Source: Shewanella sp. Arc9-LZ (GTDB lineage Bacteria; Pseudomonadota; Gammaproteobacteria; Enterobacterales; Shewanellaceae). From it: 64,000 nucleotides of DNA. A model generated the notes under the pieces. The model saw only the letters and a program-made list of their open reading frames with translations. It searched no databases and was not told where the DNA came from. The translations under genes were made by a program, and so were the position numbers. How positions within the stretch are numbered: position 1 is the stretch's first letter; the number at the start of each line of letters is the position of its first letter. Location of the stretch: NCBI RefSeq assembly GCF_010092445.1, contig NZ_CP048031.1, positions 2,046,001-2,110,000 on the forward strand. The letters run 5' to 3'. Shown piece after piece: positions 3,677 to 63,316 of this stretch.

Positions 3677-3706
3677 TTATCAACAGTTGCCATCTTTTGG
3701 TCGTTT

Positions 3707-4327
3707 ATAACTACTTTCGTAGAAAAATTTGATTATTCGTATTATTCAAACCCATGTGACTATTTACGCCAACCGCTTGATTTCAAACCCGCAGAGTCTG
3801 ACGCAGACGTTGTTATTGGTTTACCTTTTGATGCCCACACAGATACCGCCAAGGCCGTAAGTACGGTACGACTACGGGACAATGTTTTACTATGCACTGC
3901 GTGAGGGGTTTATTGATGTTGAGCATTCAATGCAAATTGCTATTTGTACTGAATAGCACAAAAAAGGTCATGGCTTTGAAGTGATTGATGCCGCTACCGT
4001 GAATAACTTAACGGCTCAACAAATGGTTGAACAGTTAATTATGCGTGTTGGCGATATGCCGTTATACGTCGCATTCGACATTCGACATTCGACATTGACT
4101 GTTTATGTTTAGACCCAGCTTTTGCAACCGCTACAGCTACGCCCGTTTGTGGTAAGTTCACTAGCGAGATCATTCGTGGCTTACGTGGTTTAAATATTGT
4201 CGGCATGGATGTTGTAGAACTAGCACTCTTTTATGATTATACAGATGTTACCCCGCTAGCTGCAGCAACACTGGGCCTTGAAATGCTACAGGTGTGGGCT
4301 GAAGGTAAAGGCTTAATTAAAAAGTAA
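3707..4327 (+). pseudogene. speB: Agmatinase (SpeB) pseudogene
   Basis: Remnant of the ureohydrolase that converts agmatine to putrescine and urea. Conceptual pieces match SpeB: TTFVEKFDYS and DVVIGLPFD at the start, [38 protein letters not shown], and [13 protein letters not shown] near the end. Lesions seen: the expected start codon reads ATA (3707-3709); GLPFD is joined directly to AHTDT near 3827-3835, deleting roughly 105-110 codons including the GGDH metal-binding motif; a frameshift follows near 3841-3870; TAG interrupts at 3954-3956; ATTCGAC is present three times at 4073-4093, adding 14 bases and shifting the frame; TGTTTA is duplicated at 4100-4111. The frame then runs to TAA at 4325-4327. 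The gene cannot make an active enzyme. Confidence 0.93.
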
Positions 4328-4352
4328 TTTCAACTTTGTAATTAAACACATT

Positions 4353-5625: not shown

Positions 5626-6201
5626 ATGAAAAAATGGTTACCATTATTAGCCGCGAGCTTGCTGAGTACATCAGTGATGGCAGGCGATTGGCAAGTCAAT
5701 CAAGATCATTCTCGGGTGAGCTTCATTTCGATTAAGAAAGCCGATGTTGCTGAAGTGCATCATTTTAAACAAGTTGCAGGTTCATTAACGGATGCTGGTG
5801 CATTTTCTTTATCGATTGATTTAACCAGTGTTGATACCGGAATAGAAATTCGTGATCAACGAATGCAAGCAGTGTTATTTGAAGTGGCACAGTTTCCTAA
5901 GTTAACCTTGGATGCAGTGGTTAACCCTAAATTGCTAGCCGGATTAAAAGTCGGTGACACGCTAACGACGCAAGTTGAAGCAACCATTAAGCTACATGGT
6001 CAGAAACAACAGAAGAGCTTTGATGTGTTAGTCGCTAAATTGTCGGATAAGAAAATGGTGATTTCAAGCTTAGCGCCAGTGATTGTTCAAGCAAGTGAAT
6101 TTGGTTTAGTGTCCGGTGTCGAAAAACTTAAAGAAATGGCGGGATTGCCGAGTATCAGCTTAGCGGTGCCAGTGTCATTTGTGCTAACCTTAGCGCAATA
6201 G
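5626..6201 (+). CDS. YceI family periplasmic lipid-binding protein
   Basis: A 191-residue exported protein. MKKWLPLLAASLLSTSVMA is a typical signal peptide with cleavage after residue 19 or so, and the mature part begins GDWQVNQDHSRVSFISIKK, the classic YceI start. The family forms a lipocalin-like beta barrel that binds isoprenoid or other amphiphilic lipids in the periplasm; the ligand cannot be read from sequence. The RBS AAAGGAC precedes the ATG. It stands alone, 60 bases after the yaiI-like gene. Confidence 0.92.
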   Translation: MKKWLPLLAASLLSTSVMAGDWQVNQDHSRVSFISIKKADVAEVHHFKQVAGSLTDAGAFSLSIDLTSVDTGIEIRDQRMQAVLFEVAQFPKLTLDAVVNPKLLAGLKVGDTLTTQVEATIKLHGQKQQKSFDVLVAKLSDKKMVISSLAPVIVQASEFGLVSGVEKLKEMAGLPSISLAVPVSFVLTLAQ

Positions 6202-6283
6202 TTATATGTGGTTATCAATGGTTTTCAATCATCAGGTTGAGAGCCATTTCCTGTTAAGTCGTTTTTAAGAAAGGTGGTATGAA

Positions 6284-7587: not shown

Positions 7588-7626
7588 GTCAATAACATCA
7601 GTCAATAACATCGTTCAATAACATCA
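7588..7626 (+). repeat. Three 13-bp tandem repeats downstream of the zinc protease gene
   Basis: Units GTCAATAACATCA (7588-7600), GTCAATAACATCG (7601-7613) and TTCAATAACATCA (7614-7626). They begin 13 bases after the stop codon and lie before the terminator. Confidence 0.9.
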
Positions 7627-7632
7627 GCTAAC

Positions 7633-21344: not shown

Positions 21345-21392
21345 GTGCACTAACGCACTAACGCACTAACGCACTAACGCACTAACGCATTA
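21345..21392 (-). repeat. Six 8-bp tandem repeats starting at the hisC stop codon
   Basis: Read on the minus strand, TAATGCGT (the hisC stop TAA plus five bases) is followed by four copies of TAGTGCGT and a final TAGTGCAC. The array starts exactly at the stop codon and lies in the hisC-hisB gap. Because the unit is 8 bases, stops occur in all three frames. Confidence 0.92.
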
Positions 21393-22439
21393 ACCAAATA
21401 ACTGAATAATCACATCGGTTTGTTTGGCTGATGTAAAGCTAAAACGAATCGCATCAGCAAGGCGTGGGTCTTTGTATGCTCGAGCAACCACGCCGGAATC
21501 GCTTAATCGTTTAGCGGCTGCTTGTACATCGTCAAATTGGGCTAAAACATAGTTACCGTTGGCAGGTAACACCTTAGCGCCATAGGCTGTTAATGCAACG
21601 CTTAAGCGTTTGCCTTGTTCAATTAAACTGGCGACTTGAGTTCGCATAGTGTCAATGCCAGCAGGACTTAACGCTTTTACCGCAAGGTCTGACACCGGTA
21701 ATGGCACCGGGTAAGGGGCGATGACTCGCATGACTAAGTCAATAATGTCATCACTGGCGAGCATAAAGCCACAACGTGCACCTGCTAAAGCAAATGCTTT
21801 TGATAATGTGCGCAACACCACAAGGTTAGGGTAGGTGCCAAGTAAATCTGCCACGCTGTAGTCTGGGCAAAACTCAATGTAGGCTTCGTCTACCACCACA
21901 ATAGCTTTAGGTGCTGCGTTAATAGCTTGTTCAATTTTGTCTTTTGCAATCACGGTGCCGGTTGGGTTATTTGGGTTACAAATAAATACAATTTTGGCAT
22001 TGCCGATTTGTGTTGGCCACGCATCCGGTAACTGATATTCATCTGTTAAACTTAACGCTGTGACAGCTACATTAAAGGTTGCAGCACTAATTGAATACAT
22101 TCCATAAGTTGGACCAAAACAAGCAATACTGTCGACAGCAGGGATACAAAATGTACGAATAAGTAATTCGATCGCTTCGTCGGCACCGCGACTGGCAATA
22201 ATATTACTTGCCTTAACGCCTGAGTAACGGCTGTAAGCATTGATGAGTTCAGCAGGTTGGCATTCTGGGTAACGATTCACTTTATCAAGCGGGCTATTAT
22301 TGAATGGCGATTCATTGGCGTTAATCCAAATATCACCGCGACCACCAATTCGTCTGGCACTCTGGTACGGGGTCAATGTCAATAATTCGGGTCTGGCCAA
22401 CGTTTTTGGATCAAAAGGCGCAGCTAAGGTTTGGCTCAT
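21390..22439 (-). CDS. hisC: Histidinol-phosphate aminotransferase
   Basis: PLP-dependent class II aminotransferase, 349 residues. WINANESPFNN, the substrate/PLP-binding ASRGADEAIELLIR, FICNPNNPTGT, VVVDEAYIEF and RTLSKAFALAGARCG (PLP lysine in SKAF) appear in order. It follows hisD after 84 bases. Its stop codon is the first unit of a tandem repeat. Confidence 0.97.
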   Translation of the reverse strand: MSQTLAAPFDPKTLARPELLTLTPYQSARRIGGRGDIWINANESPFNNSPLDKVNRYPECQPAELINAYSRYSGVKASNIIASRGADEAIELLIRTFCIPAVDSIACFGPTYGMYSISAATFNVAVTALSLTDEYQLPDAWPTQIGNAKIVFICNPNNPTGTVIAKDKIEQAINAAPKAIVVVDEAYIEFCPDYSVADLLGTYPNLVVLRTLSKAFALAGARCGFMLASDDIIDLVMRVIAPYPVPLPVSDLAVKALSPAGIDTMRTQVASLIEQGKRLSVALTAYGAKVLPANGNYVLAQFDDVQAAAKRLSDSGVVARAYKDPRLADAIRFSFTSAKQTDVIIQLFG

Positions 22440-22512
22440 GGCGGTGTTCTCTACTTTCTACTCTAATAGGGTGCTAACTAGCGCTTAGCGATAGTGCTGA
22501 CAATATGAATGA

Positions 22513-22526
22513 CTCACTACTCACTA
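22513..22526 (-). repeat. Two 7-bp tandem repeats starting at the hisD stop codon
   Basis: On the minus strand TAGTGAG occurs twice (22526-22520 and 22519-22513). The first TAG is the stop codon of hisD. Confidence 0.85.
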
Positions 22527-23813
22527 CTCAAAACTGGCTAAACGAATGGCGATAGCATTTTTATGTGCATCTAATAATTCATTTTCTGCCAACACCATCA
22601 CAGTGTTACCTAAAGTTTTAAGCCCTTGTTGGCTGAGCTCTTGCACTGTAAAACGTCGACTAAAATCGGCTAATGACAAACTTGAAACTGAACGGCTATA
22701 ACCATAAGTCGGTAAAACATGGTTAGTACCACTAGCATAATCGCCCACAGACTCTGGGGTATAAGCGCCTAAAAAGACGGAGCCGGCACCGCGAACTTGT
22801 CTAAGCACGTCACGTGGGGCAGTAGTTTGAATAATTAAATGTTCTGGGCCATACAAATTAGACACTTTTGCAGCTTGCACCATATCGCTAACAATAATAC
22901 TGCGGCTGCATTCTAGCGCTTGTGCGGCGATGTCTTTACGGCTCAACTGTGCTAATTGTTCAGTTAACGCTTGGTTGACTTGCTCTGCCAGTGTTAATGA
23001 GTCAGTCACTAACATTACTTGCGAGTCAACACCATGTTCTGCTTGGGATAATAAATCGGCCGCAACAAAACCAGGATTTGCATCTTTGTCGGCAATCACT
23101 AACACTTCAGACGGACCTGCAGGCATGTCTATTGACACACTAATACGGCTGTCCTGTGACACTAATCGTTTTGCTTCAGTCACATAACGATTACCCGGAC
23201 CAAATATTTTATCTACGTTCGGCACCGACTCTGTCCCAAATGCTAATGCCGCAATGGCTTGGGCACCACCCACCTGGAAAATATCAGTAATACCACAGAC
23301 ATTGGCGGCATAAATAATCGCATCATTAATCGGCGGTGGACTGACTAACACACGCTTTTCGCAACCGGCAATTCTTGCTGGTAACGCCAACATCATTACT
23401 GTGGATATTAATGGAGCTGTACCACCGGGAATATATAAGCCGACTCGCTCGATGGGTTCACTGCGCAATTCACAACGAATTCCCGCTTGAGTTTCTATAT
23501 CAACACCCTGAAACACCTGCGCCTTGTGAAAGGTTTCAATGTTGTTCACCGCTTGCGCAACAGCTTGTTTGACGTCGTCACCTACACGTGCACATGCTGC
23601 CGCAATGGCGTCAGTTGATAATGCGAGCTCAGTCAGTTCAACACCGTCAAATTGCTTGTTATAAGCCCGTAATGCGCTATCACCTTGAGCGTTGACTTGC
23701 TCAATAATGTCACGAACACGTTGCTCTACACTTGCATCACCAATTAATGGCGAACGCGCTAACGTTTGTCGTTGTTGTTCAGTAGATAAAGAAGCCCAAT
23801 CGAGAATTTGCAT
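22524..23813 (-). CDS. hisD: Histidinol dehydrogenase
   Basis: Zinc-dependent NAD+ enzyme oxidising histidinol to histidine, the final two steps. It has 429 residues, the family length. YIPGGTAPLISTVMMLALPA, the GGAQAIAALAFG and FGPGNRYVTEAKR segments, the DMPAGPSEVL motif and SQAEHGVDSQ are all intact. ATG 23813 follows the hisG stop by 5 bases, so the genes are co-transcribed. Confidence 0.98.
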   Translation of the reverse strand: MQILDWASLSTEQQRQTLARSPLIGDASVEQRVRDIIEQVNAQGDSALRAYNKQFDGVELTELALSTDAIAAACARVGDDVKQAVAQAVNNIETFHKAQVFQGVDIETQAGIRCELRSEPIERVGLYIPGGTAPLISTVMMLALPARIAGCEKRVLVSPPPINDAIIYAANVCGITDIFQVGGAQAIAALAFGTESVPNVDKIFGPGNRYVTEAKRLVSQDSRISVSIDMPAGPSEVLVIADKDANPGFVAADLLSQAEHGVDSQVMLVTDSLTLAEQVNQALTEQLAQLSRKDIAAQALECSRSIIVSDMVQAAKVSNLYGPEHLIIQTTAPRDVLRQVRGAGSVFLGAYTPESVGDYASGTNHVLPTYGYSRSVSSLSLADFSRRFTVQELSQQGLKTLGNTVMVLAENELLDAHKNAIAIRLASFE

Positions 23814-38649: not shown

Positions 38650-39762
38650 TTGTTAACGTTTGAATATATCAGTGATGATGCCAGCCTGTTGTCATTAGTT
38701 GAACAATACCAACAAAGCACCTTGCTGGTGCTAGATACTGAGTTTGTCCGCACTCGAACCTATTATGCTAAATTAGGCCTTATTCAAGCCTATGATGGCA
38801 AAACTTTAGCCTTAATTGATCCGGTTGCGATTACCGATTTAAGCCCATTTTGGCAGTTATTAACTGACCAAAATATTGTCAAATTAGTGCATTCATGCAG
38901 TGAAGATCTCGAGGTGTTTGCTCATTATGGTGAATGCCAACCAAGCCCTTTATTTGATAGCCAAATAGCGGCAAGCTTTGCTGGTTTAGGCCACGGATTA
39001 GGTTATGCCAAGCTCGTTGACGCATGCTTGCAAGTCGAAATAGATAAAGGCGAATCACGTACGGATTGGATGAATCGTCCACTGTCTGATGCGCAATTAC
39101 AGTATGCGGCTAATGATGTGTTTTATTTATATCAATTATACCCTCAGCTGCAACAGAAGCTTGCTGCGGACAATCGTCTTGAATGGTTGTTTGAAGAAGG
39201 TCAGCGTATGACAGAAGGGCGCATGTCATTGCCAGAAGGCGACAGCGTTTACCTTAAAGTCAAAAATGCATTTCAATTATCGAGTCAGCAGCTAGCCTAT
39301 TTAAAAGTATTGGCGAAATGGCGTCTAGCCAAAGCGGTAAGCCGCAATCTAGCGCTGGGTTTTGTGGTAAAAGACCATGCATTAATTGCATTAGCCAAAA
39401 AACAACCGACCACACTGGCGGAATTGAATAGTTTAAATGACTTAACAGATCAAGAGAAACGTATTCACGGCAAAGATTTATTAACAGTTATGGCGACGGC
39501 AGATTTAATTAATCTACCTGAAGAAGTTGATGTTGTTGCGCTTAAGTCAGGTTATAAATCAGCTTTTAAAGAAGTTAAAACAGTCTTAACTGAATTATGT
39601 GAGCGTGAAAATGTCGCATTAGAATTTGTTGGTTCTAAGCGCCATATTCATGAATTTCTATTATGGTTGTATCACAACAAACAAACACCAACACCGATAC
39701 TCTTGGTCGGTTGGCGTGGGCAGTTGGTAGGTGATTTACTAGAGCCAGTGCGCTTTAGTTAA
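38650..39762 (+). CDS. rnd: Ribonuclease D
   Basis: 3'-5' exoribonuclease that trims tRNA and other stable RNA ends. 370 residues from TTG 38650 (product MLTFEYISDD), which has GGAG six bases upstream; an in-frame ATG at 38596 would lie in the preceding terminator region. The DEDD catalytic motifs are VLDTEFVRT, the HSCSEDLEVF region, and the QYAANDVFYLYQLY block. A single HRDC domain (about 205-290) and a C-terminal helical domain follow. The stop codon lies in a duplicated 12-base segment. Next to fadD, as in E. coli. Confidence 0.95.
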   Translation: MLTFEYISDDASLLSLVEQYQQSTLLVLDTEFVRTRTYYAKLGLIQAYDGKTLALIDPVAITDLSPFWQLLTDQNIVKLVHSCSEDLEVFAHYGECQPSPLFDSQIAASFAGLGHGLGYAKLVDACLQVEIDKGESRTDWMNRPLSDAQLQYAANDVFYLYQLYPQLQQKLAADNRLEWLFEEGQRMTEGRMSLPEGDSVYLKVKNAFQLSSQQLAYLKVLAKWRLAKAVSRNLALGFVVKDHALIALAKKQPTTLAELNSLNDLTDQEKRIHGKDLLTVMATADLINLPEEVDVVALKSGYKSAFKEVKTVLTELCERENVALEFVGSKRHIHEFLLWLYHNKQTPTPILLVGWRGQLVGDLLEPVRFS

Positions 39763-39778
39763 TTCAGCTTTAGTTAAT
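39752..39778 (+). repeat. Duplicated segment at the rnd stop codon
   Basis: GCTTTAGTTAAT occurs at 39752-39763 and again at 39767-39778, a 15-base period. The first copy contains the rnd stop TAA in frame, and the second supplies another TAA in the same frame. Confidence 0.85.
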
Positions 39779-39796
39779 GCAATTTATCAACATACC

Positions 39797-46407: not shown

Positions 46408-47127
46408 ATGATCATCAATGCCAAAGGGCCAGCGAGTTTTGCCGAGAAATATATTGTTCGTTCCATTTGGGAAAACAAATTTCCACCGGGATCAATTTTA
46501 CCTGCTGAACGTGAGCTCTCTGAACTTATCGGTGTTACTCGAACAACGTTAAGAGAAGTGTTACAACGTCTTGCTCGAGATGGTTGGTTGAAAATTCAAC
46601 ATGGTAAACCTACCCAGGTGAATAATTTTTGGGAAACGTCTGGGTTAAATATTTTAGAAACCATTGCTGATTTAAATCCGGATGGTTTCCCGCTACTTGT
46701 CGACCAATTAATGGCTGCTCGTGGTAACGTAAGCAACATTTATTTTCGGGCCTCCATTCGCCACAATCCTGAAAAAGTAGTTGATGTATTAGCGGGTATT
46801 CATAGCTTAGAAAATGATGCAGAAGCGTATGCTACATTTGATTACCAATTGCATCATACATTAGCTTTTGCATCAGGTAATCCATTGTATGTATTGATTT
46901 TAAATGGTTTCAAAGGTCTTTATAATCGTGTTGGTCGATATTATTTTTCGAGCCAAGAAGCTCGTGAATTAACCATGCGTTTTTATGTCAAACTTGAAAA
47001 GTTAGCTAAAGATAAAAATTACTCTGACGTACCAGCATTAATGCGTATCAATGGTATCGAAAGTGGCAAAATGTGGCAAAAATTACGTGATGATTTACCT
47101 GCTGAAATGGGTCATGATAAATCCTAG
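46408..47127 (+). CDS. fadR: Fatty acid metabolism regulator FadR
   Basis: GntR family regulator that represses beta-oxidation genes and activates unsaturated fatty acid synthesis, released by long-chain acyl-CoA. 239 residues. The winged-helix part (FPPGSILPAERELSELIGVTRTTLREVLQRLARDGWL) is nearly the same as in E. coli, so the operator sequence should be conserved. The C-terminal all-helical acyl-CoA-binding domain follows. Its TAG stop begins a tandem repeat. Neighbours nhaB and ycgB match E. coli order. Confidence 0.97.
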   Translation: MIINAKGPASFAEKYIVRSIWENKFPPGSILPAERELSELIGVTRTTLREVLQRLARDGWLKIQHGKPTQVNNFWETSGLNILETIADLNPDGFPLLVDQLMAARGNVSNIYFRASIRHNPEKVVDVLAGIHSLENDAEAYATFDYQLHHTLAFASGNPLYVLILNGFKGLYNRVGRYYFSSQEARELTMRFYVKLEKLAKDKNYSDVPALMRINGIESGKMWQKLRDDLPAEMGHDKS

Positions 47128-47155
47128 TGAATTAGTGAATTAGTGAATTAGTGAG
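47125..47155 (+). repeat. Tandem 8-bp repeats starting at the fadR stop codon
   Basis: TAGTGAAT three times in succession (47125-47132, 47133-47140, 47141-47148) followed by TAGTGAG. The first TAG is the stop codon of fadR. The period of 8 places stops in every frame. Confidence 0.92.
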
Positions 47156-56347: not shown

Positions 56348-57058
56348 GTGACACAAAACTCACCAAGACAATTATCTTTACCCGTTTATCTACCTGACGA
56401 TGAAACCTTTCAGAGTTATTATCCTGCTTCGGGTAATGATGAGTTGATCCAGAAACTTCAAGCTAGCGCTGAAGGCAATCTAGCGTCTTCTTTGTATGTA
56501 TATGGCCCAGAAAAATCAGGCCGCACGCATTTAATGCATGCAGCTTGTGCCCTTGCCAATGACCTAGAACGCCGCACTCTCTATATCCCATTAGGCATTC
56601 ATGCCAGTATTTCACCGGCATTATTTGAGGGCCTAGAATCTCTGGAATTGATTTGTATTGATGATATAGAAGCCATAGCGGGTCATCCTGTATGGGAAGA
56701 AGCTATTTTTCATCTATATAATCGTATAGCTGAGCAACAAGATTGCCGTTTAATAGTTAGCGGAAAGGCATCACCTTCTGAAACGGGGTTTTTATTGCCA
56801 GATTTGGTTTCTCGTATGCAATGGGGATTAATCTATCAATTACAACCAATGGCAGACGATGAAAAGCTCGTGGCCTTGCAGCGCCGAGCGGCAATGCGTG
56901 GTTTGCAGTTGTCTGATGAAGTAGGGCGCTTTTTACTGACGCGAATGGCGCGTGATTTACGCACCTTGTTTGATGTACTCGATAAACTCGATAAAGCTTC
57001 TATGGTACATCAGCGTAAACTGACTATTCCGTTTATAAAAGAGATGTTGAGACTTTAA
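56348..57058 (+). CDS. hda: DnaA inactivator protein Hda
   Basis: AAA+ protein that, with the beta clamp, triggers ATP hydrolysis by DnaA and prevents over-initiation. The 236-residue protein starts at GTG 56348. The clamp-binding motif QLSLP lies at residues 8-12, right after MTQNSPR; Walker A is the YGPEKSGRTHLM segment; the Walker B-like segment is LICIDDIEAI; sensor 2 lies in RDLRTLFDVLDKLD. Followed by a large palindromic terminator. Confidence 0.96.
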   Translation: MTQNSPRQLSLPVYLPDDETFQSYYPASGNDELIQKLQASAEGNLASSLYVYGPEKSGRTHLMHAACALANDLERRTLYIPLGIHASISPALFEGLESLELICIDDIEAIAGHPVWEEAIFHLYNRIAEQQDCRLIVSGKASPSETGFLLPDLVSRMQWGLIYQLQPMADDEKLVALQRRAAMRGLQLSDEVGRFLLTRMARDLRTLFDVLDKLDKASMVHQRKLTIPFIKEMLRL

Positions 57059-57110
57059 TACCTTAGGTTTTAATTCTTTAGGCAAAAATTATCGTCATCA
57101 GTCTACGCAA

Positions 57111-63126: not shown

Positions 63127-63267
63127 ATTATTAGGCTTAAGTTGCGCCATATAGAGGTTATGACGAATGGAAATACAGATATAAAATAACTGCTAGGCAA
63201 ATAACAACGATTAAGAACGAGAAGATAGGCCAACATGGGCGTTATGCTATTTGCAACCCACTAAATT

Positions 63268-63316
63268 ATAGATAGGCTCATTTTATAGATAGGTTCATTT
63301 ATAGATAGGTTCATTG
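63268..63316 (-). repeat. Three 16-17 bp tandem repeats downstream of the DUF2897 gene
   Basis: On the minus strand AATGAACCTATCTATA occurs twice, then AAATGAGCCTATCTATA. The array starts within a few bases of the TAA stop (63321-63323) of the DUF2897 gene. Confidence 0.88.

Follow-up and report, generated by a model that had tools for sequence, protein, structure and literature searches.

Why do several genes in one region of a Shewanella chromosome end in short tandem repeats that include the stop codon itself? The window analysed here, a stretch of 64,000 bases (bases 2046001-2110000 of a complete genome of 4,911,031 bases, i.e., 4.91 Mb, and assigned to the genus by protein relatives), had been described in an earlier note as holding six repeats of this kind, with a TAGTG shared by three of them, and their number was judged more than accidental. 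Direct reading of the sequence confirmed that in hisC, hisD and fadR the real stop lies inside the first repeat unit. The hisC array (21347..21392, minus strand) consists of about 6 copies of the 8-base unit GTTAGTGC, with the stop TAA at 21390-21392 inside the first unit, TAATGCGT, which is followed by four complete copies of TAGTGCGT and a partial fifth. At the end of hisD (22512..22530, minus strand), the 7-base TAGTGAG, noted earlier as present twice, reaches 2.7 copies in all and spans the stop TAG at 22524-22526, while the fadR array (47125..47155, plus strand) was found exactly as reported, with the 8-base unit TAGTGAAT three times plus TAGTGAG and its first base at the stop TAG at 47125. 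The 15-base duplication over the rnd stop (39753..39782, plus strand) is also real, with 13/15 bases alike, and is missing from the TRF list at score 30. The two other reported cases are weaker, since the DUF2897 array (63266..63315, minus strand; 3 copies of a 16-17-base unit) and the zinc-protease array (7588..7627, plus strand; 3 copies of a 13-base unit) start 8 and 16 bases, respectively, past the first base of the stop, and neither includes the stop codon. Two arrays were absent from the earlier list, namely a 15-mer in 1.9 copies spanning the hda stop (57054..57082, plus strand) and a 10-base unit in 2.1 copies (6209..6229, plus strand) directly past the stop of the gene at 5626-6201. 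The names hisC, hisD, fadR, rnd, hda, zinc protease and DUF2897 are backed by NCBIfam and Pfam.

The window also holds a 7-base array away from any stop, 3.6 copies of CATTCGA (4072..4096, plus strand), inside a broken arginase-family gene (3677-4330). The array sits at the junction of two matching frames of this gene, which is flanked by a PF01536-type S-adenosylmethionine decarboxylase gene and a pyridoxamine-phosphate oxidase gene. When the hda and 6209-6229 arrays are taken in and those of rnd and the protease are left out, stop-proximal arrays number 6 in the window, where 1.32 would be expected in 64 kb (Poisson P 0.0024), and about 0.18 windows this rich would be expected among the 77 in the genome. 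It is because of this richness that the window drew attention.

The rest of the genome was sampled with 100 stretches of 20 kb spread over it and a later replicate of 20, giving up to 119 stretches beyond the window. The stretch inside the window (L058) was excluded, as was the overlapping part of L059, a part that the count of 100 arrays in 1.98 Mb given below retained; the gap-class count excluded the whole of L059. The replicate entered the flank, start and edge tests and the counts of stop triplets, TAGTG, additional stops and gap classes, and was not part of the array abundance and gene location, the coverage, the Markov comparison or the random-placement test. Genes were called by our own script, with a coding density of 80% only, so that some genes were missed. 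Exact arrays were defined by a period of 5-17 and at least 12 matching bases, and five TRF score cut-offs (30, 36, 40, 50 and 60) were examined. Under this definition, 100 exact arrays were found in 1.98 Mb vs 3 in a first-order Markov control, and as far as sequence is concerned, the repeats are indeed more than accidental. Their units are diverse and many of them are unrelated. Among the 99 arrays placed on genes, 67 are intergenic (<10% coding), 7 mixed and 25 coding (>90%), though about 80% of the DNA is coding, and with at least 12 matching bases required, exact arrays cover 0.05% of the coding and 0.79% of the intergenic sequence. Exact arrays numbered 0 in 0.16 Mb of the his regions of eight close relatives, 27 in 0.84 Mb of 44 other Shewanella loci and 5 in 0.57 Mb of 28 non-Shewanella loci. 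Note that one group of separate intergenic arrays has 10-base units with the core AGCGAT or AGCGGT (L089 at 2179, 2936, 4051 and 14982; L036 at 10672; L092 at 6418), the L092 array having about 14 copies.

Arrays of the own genome are unevenly distributed among the gene flanks. Counted over 118 stretches and gaps of 15-700 bases, exact arrays per kb amount to 0.66 in convergent gaps (30 in 45.6 kb), 0.22 in codirectional gaps (31 in 138.5 kb) and 0.10 in divergent gaps (6 in 60.4 kb); the density in convergent gaps is nearly seven times that in divergent ones. Compared with random non-coding placement, a control close to the one requested in the earlier note and bearing it out, the 5′ edges of arrays lie within 15 bases of a stop 1.6-2.4 times too often (39 vs 24.5 at TRF score 30, 21 vs 10.5 at 50 and 14 vs 5.8 at 60), the observed number being reached in 0/200 placements. 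This excess continues 15-119 bases past stops (103 arrays vs 59.6 expected), and when the rate of that 3′ flank (15-119 bases) is taken as the expectation, arrays that overlap or touch the stop (edge at -15..+2) show no excess (27 vs 25.5, P 0.41; P 0.14 to 0.57 across the five TRF cut-offs). Likewise, exact arrays cover 6/1197 stop codons with a free 3′ flank (0.50%) vs 0.75% of intergenic triplets, again no excess, and the sign is unchanged at 8, 10, 15 and 18 matching bases. The corresponding coverage in the window is 2/48 stops vs 1.45% of triplets, hisC being left out on account of a one-base difference in its first unit; Fisher comparison of the stop coverage of window and sample gave P 0.054, 0.035, 0.035, 0.21 and 0.21 at 8, 10, 12, 15 and 18 matching bases, respectively. 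The genome-wide frequency test proposed in the earlier note thus had a divided outcome, with stop coverage not above that of intergenic DNA and 5′ edges at stops above random intergenic placement. In position, the arrays are more than accidental against random non-coding placement and not against the rest of the 3′ flank, a residual of long arrays apart. On the other side of genes, arrays are depleted less than 15 bases from starts (8 vs 23.3), with no depletion at 15-59 bases before starts (34 vs 27.2), and array coverage is 0.2-0.4% at 1-15 bases before starts vs 0.7-1.0% after stops (at least 12 matching bases).

The loci of other species do not repeat this picture as a whole. The 52 Shewanella his-region loci showed no overall 3′ bias at TRF score 30 (stop side 30 vs 30.7, start side 50 vs 37.9) and had 20 arrays vs 9.7 at 3-59 bases past stops; in the 28 non-Shewanella loci, 8 arrays lay on the stop side and 25 on the start side. 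This comparison is a weak test of the bias because all these loci come from one genomic region. The 3′ gradient is established for the own genome only and may be peculiar to it.

The history of individual arrays was followed in relatives. In a fadR search of 129 genomes of the genus, G085 came out as the nearest relative, with a his region 87% identical to that of the window. Its hisC carries one copy-like stretch vs six units in the window, with an identical HisC end residue, and its hisD has one 7-base unit fewer, with the stop one codon later. Over the equivalent fadR stop, G085 has five full copies (TAGTGAGA x5.6) vs TAGTGAAT x3.8 in the window, and the array keeps its exact stop phase in both despite the changed unit. 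About two diverged copies are present at DUF2897, and the protease array keeps its period with a different unit. Most of the arrays compared differ between the sister species in their unit or in the number of copies. The protease array of a second relative (G112) has the same period and zero length difference, so that not every array turns over fast, since this length is equal although the gene looks broken. Indeed, in G112 (L354) the zinc-protease gene looks broken and the 13-base array behind it is nonetheless unchanged in length. A separate observation is that additional in-frame repeats of 9 bases, which are absent from the window, lie close to the ends of the DUF2897 genes of G085 (L332) and G112 (L333).

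Beyond G085, no array lies over the hisC stop in nine further relatives, where G112 has a 14-mer at +31, and in 50 Shewanella hisC tails (50 of 52, with L135 and L161 left out) TRF placed no array over the stop and three further downstream, at +19, +30 and +44. At fadR, one of these nine relatives (G092, L303) has an unrelated 13-mer in 2.5 copies over the stop, another (G098) a 12-mer in 2.5 copies at +25, and the seven others have no array in the tail; of the 11 genomes read, only that of the window and G085 carry the 8-mer array. The fadR end must have gained arrays more than once, because the G092 unit over the stop is unrelated. We also considered stop capture, in which a lost stop is read into an existing array, and set it aside as unneeded, since the fadR stop codon has an identical position in 10/10 relatives read and HisC has an identical end in the window and in G085. 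Note that HisC is longer by 4-16 residues in 8/10 relatives, and that one-codon shifts inside an array do occur, as the HisD stop of G085 lies one codon later.

Altogether, we regard these arrays as very probably ordinary replication-slippage repeats that 3′ flanks tolerate and coding constraint trims, and not as a stop signal of a special kind. Strand slippage in replication would duplicate a stretch of roughly 6-17 bases head to tail, further slippage would let the array grow, shrink or homogenise, and copies would persist mainly where they are harmless. A duplication that contains the stop would not alter the protein, which still ends in the first copy, and since such duplications would be harmless and the DNA behind genes little constrained, arrays would gather in 3′ flanks and above all in convergent gaps. 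The visible edge of an array would tend to lie near the stop because coding constraint freezes the in-gene part of the first unit. The abundance of the arrays, their diverse units, their 3′ gradient and the absence of a stop-overlap excess over the 3′ flank are demonstrated in the own genome, as are the differences from its sister species; the slippage event itself and its neutrality are what we infer. The break in the arginase-family gene, with its 7-mer array, is another site of relaxed constraint. Results that count against slippage as the explanation are the excess of long arrays at stops, the loss of the barrier effect in one simulation setting (described below), the missing 3′ bias in the loci of other species and the protease array length kept in G112. 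Among the three ideas offered in the earlier note (a slippage hot spot, fail-safe stops, and a ribosome or mRNA-end signal), the first fits best, with the amendment that the favoured zone is the whole 3′ flank and not clearly the stop codon.

The excess of long arrays bears on a more specific proposal, in which gene ends themselves are a hot spot of array birth, as an example because translation termination or transcription raises slippage at the stop. At TRF score 50, the 3′ flank predicts 4.4 edges at -3..+2 of the stop and 11 are observed (P 0.0055); the observed and expected numbers are 7 vs 2.3 at score 60 (P 0.012), and with the 52 other Shewanella loci added at score 50, there are 13 edges (P 0.0017). 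The exact stop phase of fadR in two species and the unrelated 13-mer at the same place in G092 point in the same direction. In contrast, own-genome edges at -3..+2 show no significant excess at scores 30, 36 and 40 (P 0.33, 0.15 and 0.14), five cut-offs having been examined; the replicate stretches alone gave 1 vs 0.4; and total stop overlap stays at the 3′-flank rate, while the 50 Shewanella hisC tails read are free of TRF arrays over the stop. Moreover, a slippage simulation in which the coding part was frozen raised the number of edges at the stop 1.4-1.5-fold in two of its three settings, the barrier effect being absent in the high-mutation setting (0.24-0.67). With a simulated 1.45-fold barrier, P becomes 0.059 (score 50), 0.065 (score 60) and 0.030 (score 50 with the 52 Shewanella loci), and the model thus absorbs much of the long-array excess. 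We take this excess (11 vs 4.4 at score 50) to be probably for the most part the frozen-coding effect; gene ends as a specific hot spot are unlikely. Similarly improbable is an extended version, according to which long arrays start at stops beyond what coding constraint explains. In that case, slippage with one edge at the stop would be seeded by a gene-end process, such as an encounter of replication with terminating ribosomes or polymerase. This process would recur at one gene, as at fadR with unrelated units in two lineages, and the arrays could be a stop reservoir that lets the protein end shift by one codon, as between the two hisD genes.

It could also be thought that the arrays are selected, either as fail-safe terminators, whose 7-8-base stop-bearing units would catch read-through or frameshifted ribosomes in every frame, or as RNA elements or sites bound by a regulator, comparable to the TAACTGA heptamers found in marine Beggiatoaceae. 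The units at stops do hold stops, and those of a length not divisible by three give them in all frames, as the earlier note had stated for units of 7-8 bases; in stop-overlapping units, stop triplets are also more frequent on the coding strand than on the opposite one (12 vs 3, P 0.035), a class that includes the real stop by definition. In contrast, units 3-119 bases downstream have no significant strand excess (29 vs 18 of 92 arrays, the others tied, P 0.14), arrays elsewhere lean to the opposite strand (27 vs 45, P 0.044), and the period is divisible by three in 8/23 stop-overlapping arrays. Additional stops within 5 codons occur in 34.0% of 1163 tails in frame vs 38.0% in +1 and 34.7% in +2, i.e., without an in-frame excess, and the eubacterial survey PMC6764699, in the part available, reports a paucity of additional stops. 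Selection for fail-safe termination, as suggested in the earlier note, therefore appears very unlikely. A regulatory role would agree with short 7-8-base tandem intergenic units that contain stop triplets, with the TAGTG common to three arrays of the window and with clusters of three close TAGTG copies at five genomic places vs one for the reversed control pattern. These places are hisC, fadR, 1405095 (39 bases past a stop), 4131259 and 4360735, but at 4131259 the copies lie on the strand opposite the gene, at a TAA stop, and at 4360735 they lie inside an open reading frame. In the array at 1405095 (L001 from 1501), five units of TAGTGTC give way to five of TAGTGAA, which looks like the spread of a unit variant and is in keeping with slippage. 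Outside the window, TAGTG occurs in 2/61 exact arrays of period 6-9, where 118 pentamers occur in at least three such arrays, and we rejected it as a common motif. The sharing seen in the earlier note is present in the three window cases and does not extend to a general motif; it is a coincidence, aided by frequent T after stops (502/1163 genes, with TAGTG at 24 stops and TAATG at 61).

The ribosome or mRNA-end signal also envisaged there fits poorly with units that are mostly unrelated between sites, and the five arrays folded (z -0.38, -0.28, -1.58, -0.48 and +0.59) showed no structure clearly beyond shuffles, 14/200 shuffles of the fadR array folding equally well. A separate hairpin lies downstream of the fadR array (z -8.54). 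No Rfam match at the gathering score was obtained in the window, and terminators were rejected together with RNA structure, as 4 terminator-like sites were counted vs 4.1 in shuffles, with none at the his arrays. Given in addition the depletion close to starts and the restriction of the fadR 8-mer array to the window and G085, a role as regulator sites or RNA elements is hardly credible.

Among known systems, the ordinary slippage repeats favoured here showed no difference in kind from the long simple sequence repeats and minisatellites of bacteria, as surveyed by Mrazek and co-workers and described in the available parts of PMC4679880 and PMC4692102; they are tandem beyond chance, mainly non-coding and variable between relatives. 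The same partial texts report that heptamer repeats are over-represented in bacteria and propose polymerase slippage as the cause; the 3′-flank gradient and the trimming at stops measured here are absent from the descriptions in those parts. The TAACTGA heptamer of marine Beggiatoaceae likewise holds stops in all frames, and 13 of its sets overlap the stop of the upstream gene; its author argues, in the portion of PMC4679880 at hand, that a unit of this kind can overlap no part of a gene but its end, so that this overlap is a necessary consequence. According to the same portion, Beggiatoaceae have one TAACTGA unit in 169 sets, mostly just before starts, whereas the units of the genome studied here are diverse and depleted less than 15 bases from starts, and neither a single unit over many sites nor a concentration before starts was found. 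Fail-safe stop codons resemble the arrays in placing extra stops behind the real one, as described in PMC6764699, whose accessible part finds no compelling evidence of selection for additional stops in eubacteria; our in-frame test agrees with that part of the survey, and neither of the two marks of fail-safe stops was observed. For REP-like or terminator-like RNA elements, both folding beyond shuffles and an Rfam family match were lacking. A literature search that covered few subscription-journal papers found no paper on stop-codon arrays in Shewanella.

The finding carries a caution for genome reading. Stops in every frame give repeats at stop codons an air of design, but in this genome arrays are equally dense throughout the 3′ flank, and most of them differ among relatives. 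The gradient from convergent through codirectional to divergent gaps provides a simple map of insertion tolerance in gene flanks, and the arrays could be used to tell strains apart.
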